DNA of 64,000 nucleotides. It comes from Rhodohalobacter barkolensis (GTDB lineage Bacteria; Bacteroidota; Rhodothermia; Balneolales; Balneolaceae). The stretch is taken from assembly GCF_002834295.1 (NCBI RefSeq), contig NZ_PISP01000001.1:1674001-1738000 (forward strand), read 5' to 3'. Under the pieces are notes generated by a model. The model was not told the DNA's origin and did no database searches. It was given only the letters and a program-made list of their open reading frames with translations. This document shows positions 16,278-19,335 of this stretch, one piece after another; within the stretch, counting starts at the first letter, position 1, and every line of letters starts with the position of its first letter. The translations under genes and the position numbers were made by a program.

Positions 16278-16571
16278 ATGACGTATCGTGAACTCATAGA
16301 CCAACTTGCCGAATCTACCGGCCAGTCTAAAGCTCAGACCAAGAAGCTTCTTGAAGATGCTATCTCTGTATTGTCCGACCAATTATCCAAAGACAAAGGT
16401 GTATCAATACCCGAATTAGGAACCTTTAGTACCAAAGTTAAAGAGGTACAGAAGGTGTATAGCCCCCACTACAAAAAGTATATGCTCGTCCCCCCAAAGA
16501 GAGTTGTTGAATTTAGTCCCTCTGCAGGTCTTAAAGATGAACTAAAGTTCTCGGGCCAAGACAATGAGTGA
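16278..16571 (+). CDS. HU-family DNA-binding protein
   Basis: A 97-residue small basic protein of the HU/IHF fold, beginning MTYRELIDQLAESTGQSKAQTKKLL. The beta-arm region (residues 50-85) has KVYSPHYKKYMLVPPKRVVEF, which lacks the classic NPxTG arm tip. The gene overlaps the next HU-domain gene by eight bases, so the two are co-translated and probably form a heterodimeric or hierarchical pair. Paired HU-like genes of this kind occur in Bacteroidetes relatives. Confidence 0.85.
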   Translation: MTYRELIDQLAESTGQSKAQTKKLLEDAISVLSDQLSKDKGVSIPELGTFSTKVKEVQKVYSPHYKKYMLVPPKRVVEFSPSAGLKDELKFSGQDNE

Positions 16572-17826
16572 AAAAATCACCTTTCGGGAGCTGGTAGAAC
16601 TTATCGCGGAGCAGTCTAAGCAGAGTCAAACATCTACCAACAGTTTTATTGGCGAACTGGTTAATATTATTGAATCCGGTCTCAGGCAGAGCGGTTCAGT
16701 CAGTATATCCGGTTTTGGTAAGTTTGAACTGCGTTGGATGAATGAACGGCCGGGAGTTAATCCTCAAACCGGGGAAGAAATTACAATTCCGGGTCAAAAT
16801 AAAGTCGTTTTCAAGCCTTATAAAGCTCTTAGGGAGGACGTGAATCGACCCTATGCCAAGATGGAACCTCAGGTACTGGATGAATCTCCGGAAGATTCTG
16901 AGGAAAAGGATGAGTCCGGCAAAGATAAAACGTCTGATGTTGATTCACCATCTGCCAAAGCGTCGTCAGAAGATGGGGATGATTTTTTGATAGAGCGGCC
17001 CAATCCGTCTAAGAATAAATCTGAAATTGAGCCGGTAGATAAAGAGGAAGAAAAAAAATCTGAACAGGAGAAATTCAACCCTTTTCCTGTCGGAACCGGT
17101 AGCCAAACATCTGAAACGGCGGGTTCTGAAAAAAAAGATACCGTTAAAAGTAAGTTACCGGCCAATCAAAAAACTCCGGCGTTAACGCCCGGTCAAAGAA
17201 CGAATTTATCTAAGAAAGTTCAGGACTCCGGAAATTTCAACTGGACCTATGCAGCCGCAGCCGTAATCGTTGCACTTGCTATTTTTATTATTTTCTTACT
17301 CTCCCGACAAGTAACAACAAACGATTCTCCTGAATTGGCATCTCAACCTGAACAGATCACGGCCCCGGTTACTCCGGAACAGGATCAAAGCGTTGAAGAG
17401 TCGGAGCCACCACCTGTTGAAACTGAATCTGAGTCTGAGTCTGAACCTGATCCGACAACAGAAACGGAACTTTATTCTGTTGATCAGGGAGAGTCGTTAT
17501 GGAGTATAGCCGAAGGTGAGCTGGGCAATCCTTATTTGTGGCCGATGATTTATGGCCTCAACCTCGAAGAAATTGAAAATCCTAATATTATACCCGCATC
17601 GGCAGAACTGACCGTACCGGTTATTTCTGACCCCGACAACCTATCAGAATCACAGCTTGAACAGGTTGCTGAGGGATATTTGTCGGTCTATCAATGGACC
17701 AAAGCCAATAATCCGGATGAAGCAAAATATTTTCTCTGGGCGGTTGGTGTCTTCTCTCCGGATAAGCTCGATCTCGCAGCTTCAAGCGTTGATCAGGCAG
17801 ATCTCAATTTTGCAAAAACGAGATAA
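16564..17826 (+). CDS. HU domain - transmembrane - LysM-like protein
   Basis: A 420-residue protein with an unusual order of parts. Residues 1-98 are a full HU/IHF domain including the arm motif RPGVNPQTGEEI. Residues 100-225 form a charged Ser/Glu/Lys/Pro-rich linker. Residues 229-247 are a single membrane helix. Residues 255-300 form an acidic Pro/Glu/Ser linker and 304-354 a LysM-like domain (YSVDQGESLWSIA, ELTVPVI). The tail 355-420 is helical. The layout would place DNA-binding in the cytoplasm and a peptidoglycan-binding domain in the periplasm, so it could tether the nucleoid to the cell wall. Function is inferred from architecture only. Confidence 0.82.
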   Translation: MSEKITFRELVELIAEQSKQSQTSTNSFIGELVNIIESGLRQSGSVSISGFGKFELRWMNERPGVNPQTGEEITIPGQNKVVFKPYKALREDVNRPYAKMEPQVLDESPEDSEEKDESGKDKTSDVDSPSAKASSEDGDDFLIERPNPSKNKSEIEPVDKEEEKKSEQEKFNPFPVGTGSQTSETAGSEKKDTVKSKLPANQKTPALTPGQRTNLSKKVQDSGNFNWTYAAAAVIVALAIFIIFLLSRQVTTNDSPELASQPEQITAPVTPEQDQSVEESEPPPVETESESESEPDPTTETELYSVDQGESLWSIAEGELGNPYLWPMIYGLNLEEIENPNIIPASAELTVPVISDPDNLSESQLEQVAEGYLSVYQWTKANNPDEAKYFLWAVGVFSPDKLDLAASSVDQADLNFAKTR

Positions 17827-17858: not shown

Positions 17859-18170
17859 ATGATACGTCATATCGTAATGTGGAAACTACAAGATGAAGCA
17901 GCTGGCGCTACTAAAGAAAAGAACGCTGAAAAGATGAAACTCATCCTGGAAGGCCTTCGAACCAATATCGATGAAATTAAAGATGTTGAAGTAGGCATTC
18001 AGATTAACCAGGATGACCCGGATGCACTTGATGTGGTTCTGATCTGTGATTTTGAAACGGATTTAGACTTTCAGATGTACACCAGAAATGCGCACCATAA
18101 AAAAGCTGTGGATTTCATAAAAAAAGTGGCCGAAAGCCGGTATACTGTCGACTATAAGGTGGATCTGTAG
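17859..18170 (+). CDS. Dabb (stress-responsive A/B barrel) domain protein
   Basis: A 103-residue protein starting MIRHIVMWKLQDEAAG, the signature opening of the Dabb dimeric ferredoxin-like barrel family. It also has YTRNAHHKKAVDFI near residue 80, another family hallmark. Members are small dimeric cytoplasmic proteins of mixed or unknown activity. It sits 32 bases after the HU-LysM gene on the same strand. Confidence 0.88.
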   Translation: MIRHIVMWKLQDEAAGATKEKNAEKMKLILEGLRTNIDEIKDVEVGIQINQDDPDALDVVLICDFETDLDFQMYTRNAHHKKAVDFIKKVAESRYTVDYKVDL

Positions 18171-18183
18171 GTTCTACAAAATT

Positions 18184-19047
18184 GTGGACACCAAGCCATT
18201 TGTAATACCCGACATCCCTCTTAAAAAGCATCTTAAAAGAGAACTCTTACATGCAACAGAGTTAATAAGGGCTGAATTACTGTGTTCTGTCCGGAAACAT
18301 CGAACAGATATTGTTGAATCCACTCACCTTACACGAAAACGCCTGAAGCTTTTTCGGGCGTTTTTCAAACTACTGAAAGAGTGTGGTGATCGTAAGGAGT
18401 TAAAAGAACTGAATACGACATTCAGAAAATGGGGTCAATCCTTATCAGAATTACGGGATGTTCATGTTCACAAGCTGTTCATTGAAGAGGTTATTGCAAA
18501 CCCATCAGAAGTAATCTCCACAAATTTACTCCAGGAGATTCGAGAGATAGCTCGCCAACAAGTTGACCAAATGGAGCAGCGGTTAGTGGCAGAGGGAGAT
18601 CTTTTCAAAAATATGGAACGGCAAATTGACAACTATTCATTGATCCATACGTTTATTGAATCCAATCAATTTGATGCTGCGTGTATTTTGAAAGGATTTA
18701 AAGTTTCATTTCAGAAAAGCCATCAAGCATTTATTGAAGCCGAATCATCCAAACTTTCTGAGCCTTTTCACGAATGGAGGAAACGGTTAAAAGATGTACA
18801 ATATCAGCTGGATCTGCTGCGATCTCATCAGAAACATATAAATGTATCCGTTTCAGATGTTGAGCAAATTTGTGAAATTCTTGGGAAGGATCAGGATCTG
18901 AATAATTTTATTCATTGGATGGATAAACTGAACCTGAATACCAAATCAGTAAAAGATTGGGTTCTTTCTCTGAGAAAATCTCAGCATGGTTTAAAGCATC
19001 AGCTTATTGCTGAAGGCAACAGATTTTATAAACACTCATCCATTTAA
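18184..19047 (+). CDS. CHAD domain protein
   Basis: A 287-residue helical protein beginning with GTG. It shows CHAD-type features: VRKHRTDIVESTHLTRKRLK with conserved His and basic residues (residues 36-57), LRDVHVHK (about 96), and a second HEWRKRLKDVQYQ segment (about 196-208). CHAD domains bind inorganic polyphosphate through conserved basic residues and often associate with polyphosphate granules. No CYTH triphosphatase domain or polyphosphate kinase gene is in view. It is 13 bases after the Dabb gene. Confidence 0.8.
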   Translation: MDTKPFVIPDIPLKKHLKRELLHATELIRAELLCSVRKHRTDIVESTHLTRKRLKLFRAFFKLLKECGDRKELKELNTTFRKWGQSLSELRDVHVHKLFIEEVIANPSEVISTNLLQEIREIARQQVDQMEQRLVAEGDLFKNMERQIDNYSLIHTFIESNQFDAACILKGFKVSFQKSHQAFIEAESSKLSEPFHEWRKRLKDVQYQLDLLRSHQKHINVSVSDVEQICEILGKDQDLNNFIHWMDKLNLNTKSVKDWVLSLRKSQHGLKHQLIAEGNRFYKHSSI

Positions 19048-19056
19048 TTCTTTTAC

Positions 19057-19335
19057 ATGATGGATTCTGATGAACCTCATAAAATCCCCATCAATGGCGT
19101 TCTGGATCTGCACTATTTTGCCCCTGAAGATCTATCCACTCTCATTGATGAATATATTCGTGCATGTCTTGAAAAACAGATCTACGAAGTTCGTTTTATT
19201 CACGGAAAAGGAATAGGAAATATCAGACGCAGCGTTCACGCCTTGTTGGAGAGAAATCCTCATGTAACCGATTATCAGCTTGCCAATGAATCCGGTGGCG
19301 GCTGGGGTGCCACAATTGCGAATTTGGAGCCTTGA
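19057..19335 (+). CDS. stand-alone Smr domain protein
   Basis: A 92-residue protein consisting of one Smr domain. Motifs are DLHYFAPEDL (17-26), VRFIHGKGIGNIR (44-56) and the tail SGGGWGATIANLEP. Smr domains are nucleases or nucleic-acid-binding modules usually found at the C-terminus of MutS2. The full MutS2 gene with its own Smr domain is 4.3 kb downstream. This small form lies 9 bases after the CHAD gene, so it closes the HU-HU/LysM-Dabb-CHAD-Smr run. Confidence 0.85.
   Translation: MMDSDEPHKIPINGVLDLHYFAPEDLSTLIDEYIRACLEKQIYEVRFIHGKGIGNIRRSVHALLERNPHVTDYQLANESGGGWGATIANLEP

Follow-up and report, generated by a model that had tools for sequence, protein, structure and literature searches.

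Apart from ParABS and transertion, what holds a bacterial chromosome in place relative to the cell envelope is an open question, on which the phyla considered here have been little studied. One related group comprises the CCDC81-type proteins of Bacteroidota (PF18174 + PF18175 + PF05036), for which a role in chromosome partition was reportedly predicted by Burroughs, Aravind and colleagues in Cell Cycle in 2017. These proteins combine two HU domains, one membrane helix and a C-terminal domain of a peptidoglycan-binding type, in this case SPOR; both HU domains are divergent, lie in one chain and lack the NPxTG arm. Of 148 sampled Bacteroidales genomes, 128 contain PF18174; at the loci that we read it is accompanied by a membrane helix and mostly by a SPOR-like end, one of them (L171) showing the order PF18174-PF18175-membrane-SPOR. 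HU and IHF themselves (PF00216) have the full HU fold with DNA arms and are soluble. A further point of comparison is Rv3852 of M. tuberculosis, which is described as a nucleoid-associated protein with a one-helix membrane anchor that affects cell-wall synthesis and acts through Wag31; it is annotated as H-NS and reported to be unlike other nucleoid proteins (PMC8233713).

Here we describe a pair of overlapping genes from Rhodohalobacter barkolensis, located in a stretch of 64,000 nucleotides that we refer to as the window. The larger of the two proteins has the HU fold and DNA arms of HU and IHF, but unlike these proteins it also carries linkers, a membrane helix and a LysM-type domain. With Rv3852 it would share the character of a membrane-anchored nucleoid protein; the helix of Rv3852 is described as C-terminal, and the abstract mentions no wall-binding domain, in contrast to the LysM end found here (PMC8233713). 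The nearest parallel is the CCDC81 type, from which the pair differs in dividing its two HU domains between two chains, in keeping the arm and in ending with LysM instead of SPOR. PF18174 was not listed for the large protein, scored 16.1 bits in the small protein against a cut-off of 26, and had no match in the window's genome; PF18175 scored 17.6 and 20.1 bits in the pair against a cut-off of 35; and Pfam found no SPOR match in the large protein, whose C-terminus is of LysM type. On the basis of these profile results, we regard the pair as lying outside the CCDC81 type and as another version of this kind of device. No description of the LysM form was found in the literature searched, which did not cover the 2017 CCDC81 study, and an earlier description is possible.

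The reading that we favor, with a probability of roughly one half, is that the two genes encode the two subunits of a tether that spans the membrane and links nucleoid to cell wall. The interest of such a pair lies in its joining of a DNA-binding fold to a wall-binding fold across a membrane, in several genera and three phyla, which allows a direct and cheap test.

Architecture and predicted topology

Both genes lie on the forward strand. The small subunit gene (16278..16571) encodes 97 amino acids with a PF00216 match at 2.3e-19 and is placed directly 5′ of the large subunit gene (16564..17826), whose 420-amino-acid product is laid out, according to Pfam, NCBIfam, a full-length model and a model of the C-terminal part, as HU domain, linker, membrane helix, linker, LysM domain and tail. 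The junction, ATGAGTGA (16564..16571), contains the ATG of the large ORF at 16564 and the TGA of the small ORF at 16569-16571; the coordinates and the eight-base overlap with a small HU-like gene given in the original prediction, which was made from the sequence alone, are therefore exact.

That prediction had proposed a complete HU/IHF domain followed by a charged linker and one membrane helix, and the same order emerged from our analysis. Residues 1-97 (16564..16854) form the HU domain: PF00216 covers residues 8-94 at 2.3e-23 and 82.7 bits, and the small protein reaches 69.9 bits, both against a gathering score of 22.4. The HU part of the full-length model aligns with Anabaena HU-DNA co-crystals over 92-93 residues (Z 9.9, rmsd 3.8-3.9, 29% identity) and also matches IHF-DNA structures. 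The cytoplasmic linker (residues 98-226; 16855..17241) is acidic, with a net charge of −9, and disordered; its pLDDT is mostly below 50 in the full-length model, and residues 106-204 fall almost entirely below that value. Among 58 homologues this inner linker ranges from 47 to 264 residues and has no conserved length. The membrane helix (residues 227-251; 17242..17316) is a lone hydrophobic segment with a mean hydropathy of 2.75 from residue 228, and it is helical in the model; a single-segment call was obtained for 53 of the 58 homologues, and the remaining five have closely spaced or overlapping segments, all in one region. Beyond the helix, a second disordered and acidic linker, predicted to be periplasmic (residues 252-299; 17317..17460; low pLDDT, net charge −14), leads to the LysM-fold domain (residues 300-353; 17461..17622). 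The chain ends in a tail (residues 354-420; 17623..17823) in which the models predict helices, the helical stretch being residues 362-419, and which was absent from the earlier description.

Orientation in the membrane was assessed by counting K+R in the 15 residues before and after the helix, which gave means of 3.2 vs 1.0 across the 58 homologues. The positive-inside bias, which corresponds to an N-in/C-out arrangement and is shared by the window protein, is found in 53 of these proteins and is reversed in two. Because K+R is higher before the helix than after it in those 53, the HU domain is predicted to lie inside and the LysM domain outside; the proposal that the two domains stand on opposite sides of the membrane agrees with this bias, and the sequence gave no support for same-side placement. 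When members of the genus are compared with the window protein, identity averages 84% in the HU domain, 44% in the helix, 57% in the LysM domain and 62% in the tail, but only 19% in the inner and 24% in the outer linker, as would be expected of two functional, conserved ends joined by a flexible leash.

Distribution, partner gene and neighborhood

The architecture of the large protein and its overlapping partner recur together in dozens of genomes, far beyond chance. Full or near-full homologues occur in most members of the genus, with R. halophilus and R. sulfatireducens among the closest copies in named relatives, and in several other genera of Balneolaceae. Beyond Rhodohalobacter, a scan of named genomes recovered the two-gene unit from Fodinibius, Aliifodinibius, Balneola and Gracilimonas and, contrary to expectation, from part of the Bacteroidales and from two Gammaproteobacteria MAGs; in the latter class it occurs in some members from sediment. 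At a strict cut-off, the HU-membrane-LysM protein was present in 23 of 148 sampled Bacteroidales genomes, and in the order of one gammaproteobacterial MAG a match was found in 9 of 54 genomes, some of these matches being partial. Other families of the order yielded only ordinary HU or short LysM matches to the large protein; a phylum-wide search with a mixed profile brought up mostly ordinary HU proteins and added little outside Balneolaceae. The HU pair of the Gammaproteobacteria MAGs (L078, L084, L181-L186) may derive from transfer out of Bacteroidota or from an older origin. One contig titled as a Chitinophagaceae bacterium (LKNA01000026.1, L037) encodes a copy 69-75% identical to that of the window, and its name looks wrong.

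Where the sequence ahead of a homologue is long enough, a small HU gene lies, in essentially every case, directly upstream, overlapping the large gene or separated from it by a few bases. Among the Bacteroidales entries listed this applies to 22 of 23, the exception (L168) being an apparently fused chain with an HU match below the Pfam cut-off; at this locus (L168:1042-2418) a single polypeptide seems to combine the small HU with the large HU-membrane-LysM protein, and its second HU is armless. We then considered a tree of 54 HU sequences, including 20 large-protein domains and 20 small proteins. The large HU domains form one group and the small HU proteins another, each spanning Balneolota, Bacteroidota and Gammaproteobacteria; supports are 82/92 and 92/99, respectively, and bootstrapping recovers each as a single group, in 100% and 92% of replicates, in a phylogeny that has long branches and only moderate support. 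As the large and small HU domains fall into separate groups, the pair is ancient and co-inherited as a unit. HU proteins act as dimers, and given this property, a dedicated heterodimer is the natural reading. The small gene had been mentioned originally as a side note to the large one; the overlap is real, and the evidence now makes the small HU half of the system.

Upstream of the pair in the window are cysS, folE and an aconitase gene (named by eye), and downstream, at 17859-19335, are genes with Dabb, CHAD and Smr domains. Of the Rhodohalobacter-type loci read, most have a Dabb gene after the pair, as does Fodinibius, and in several of these loci CHAD and Smr genes are present too; no Dabb gene follows in Balneola or Gracilimonas, where HemN-like and carbonic-anhydrase-like genes are found. 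The Bacteroidales neighbors are ftsY-, rimO- and MoxR-like genes (names in all three groups assigned by eye from sequence). In four of these loci (L081, L082, L090 and L102) the pair is located between a rimO-like gene, accompanied in some by an ftsY-like gene, and a MoxR-like ATPase gene, which in the Bacteroidales loci starts an apparent Bat aerotolerance operon, also named by eye. Because neighbors vary between groups, a shared operon was dropped as a clue to function. A phage or mobile origin was likewise rejected, since no relative was found in viral contigs and the neighboring genes are of housekeeping type.

The changing neighborhood bears on an alternative explanation, in which the pair is a one-component regulator resembling ToxR or CadC: the periplasmic LysM domain would sense the wall, and the membrane-held HU pair would act at a few promoters in the manner of IHF. 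Membrane one-component regulators consist of a DNA-binding domain, one helix and a periplasmic domain, which is the layout seen here, and IHF-alpha gives the best NCBIfam score for the HU part (6.5e-18, below the cut-off). HU-type DNA binding is usually only weakly specific, however; the differences in neighbors between Balneolaceae genera and Bacteroidales leave no constant nearby target, and a mostly acidic linker that varies between 47 and 264 residues would be poorly suited to conformational signaling. We consider a regulator of this kind unlikely.

Conservation of the DNA arm

The beta arm with a proline at its tip, characteristic of HU and IHF, is retained in the large protein, where the tip comprises residues 62-71 (RPGVNPQTGE; 16747..16776). 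All 28 orthologues examined have R62, G64, P67, T69, I75 and P76, and the NPQTGE motif and flanking arm residues are near-invariant throughout the window protein's family. The small subunit also keeps the arm-tip proline, in the form SPHY in the window and NPHY in relatives. Because these arm residues are kept, DNA binding is likely in the window protein's family; elsewhere it is less sure. The large HU of Bacteroidales carries V or I in place of the intercalating proline and their small HU keeps NP, and the arm is lost in the large HU of two Bacteroidales copies (L168 and L169) and in one gammaproteobacterial small HU (L084). Net charge is 0 for the large HU domain and +1 for its small partner, with no big positive excess; an arm-bearing stand-alone HU from the same genome (L001) also has a net charge of 0.

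One may postulate instead that the HU fold is a protein-binding adaptor that joins a cytoskeletal or division partner, and not DNA, to the wall. The HTH of RodZ serves as an adaptor for MreB, and an adaptor role for an HU-fold protein has been proposed in the case of CCDC81. The neutrality of the HU domain is consistent with such a role, as is the loss of the arm in some Bacteroidales copies and in the large subunit of the SPOR-ended cassette described below. The near-invariance of NPQTGE and its flanking residues in the window's family argues against it, as does the arm-tip proline of the small partner, which would be needless in a pure protein adaptor, and we regard this explanation as improbable.

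The LysM fold and SPOR-ended relatives

The C-terminal part of the large protein was modeled by AlphaFold2 with a mean pLDDT of 95.7, and both its leading Foldseek hits and the chains that VIA aligns best are domains of LysM type, which bears out the LysM-like domain of the original prediction; the placement of this domain outside the cytoplasm follows from the charge bias. The beta-alpha-alpha-beta arrangement of the LysM fold is recovered in a comparison with 7r1l (Z 4.8, rmsd 1.5, 46/46 residues). Profile matches are fainter: Pfam found no LysM match in the window protein at the PF01476 gathering score and found one in 7 of 28 orthologues, the best at 8.4e-4 and none above 0.01, and residues 293-352 match the NCBIfam LysM protein model NF008399 at 5.7e-5, which falls short of the cut-off set for this model. 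The LysM assignment is accordingly one of modeled fold and of orthologues. The highest-ranking VIA matches (Z 6.7-7.3) are to the potassium-binding protein Kbp in native or engineered form, and the PG that usually forms the turn of LysM reads PA in the window protein. Wall binding by this part is thus not certain, given that the LysM match is below the Pfam cut-off and that the nearest solved structures include Kbp. It nevertheless seems very improbable that the domain is an ion-binding or oligomerizing module in a protein that merely places HU at the membrane, as glycan-binding LysM domains (CtCBM50, T. thermophilus NlpC/P60 and P. aeruginosa MltD) also align compactly (rmsd 1.4-1.7, Z 4.8-5.0), and SPOR cassettes place another peptidoglycan-binding domain at the same position, suggesting that what the two types have in common is wall binding.

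In the two-subunit tether that we favor, the small HU protein and the large protein's HU domain, produced from overlapping genes, would pair as a heterodimer that binds and bends DNA at the inner membrane through the kept arm residues. The long, flexible acidic linker and the single membrane helix are predicted to take the chain to the periplasm, where the LysM domain and helical tail may hold peptidoglycan or a partner associated with the wall. Numerous anchors of this sort, each weak and largely sequence-nonspecific, could keep the chromosome near the envelope and aid its positioning or segregation. The original suggestion that the protein ties chromosome to wall gains from the architecture, the predicted opposite-side topology, the kept arm and the conservation of both ends; the binding of DNA and of peptidoglycan we infer. 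A more specific version, in which a dedicated HU heterodimer with working arms and one subunit gripping peptidoglycan would be a direct and general tether beside the SPOR cassette, is offered only tentatively.

This SPOR cassette is encoded in the same genome outside the window (C3:558984-560372) and consists of a 463-amino-acid protein in which HU, an acidic linker and a membrane helix precede SPOR (PF05036, 6.8e-10), and whose ORF is overlapped by a small HU-like ORF upstream. It therefore shares with the LysM pair the overlap of a small HU-like ORF with a large HU-linker-membrane-wall-domain ORF, as well as acidic linkers; it differs in its SPOR end and in its large HU, in which the arm is deleted and the net charge is −7. 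Because the HU arm is intact in the LysM version, we regard the latter as the better candidate for a real DNA tether. SPOR domains bind denuded glycan, and the SPOR-ended cassette may do a related job at denuded-glycan sites such as the septum. This type was found in the majority of the Balneolaceae sampled and also in further families of the same order, so that it extends to more families than the LysM version does.

The possibility that the LysM and SPOR types replace each other was rejected, as both are found in 19 of 23 LysM-bearing Bacteroidales genomes, a co-occurrence no different from background (Fisher p 0.52). Since the two kinds co-occur, they are separate systems that follow a common plan. 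Downstream of the SPOR cassette and on the same strand lies a MotA/TolQ/ExbB-like ORF (named by eye).
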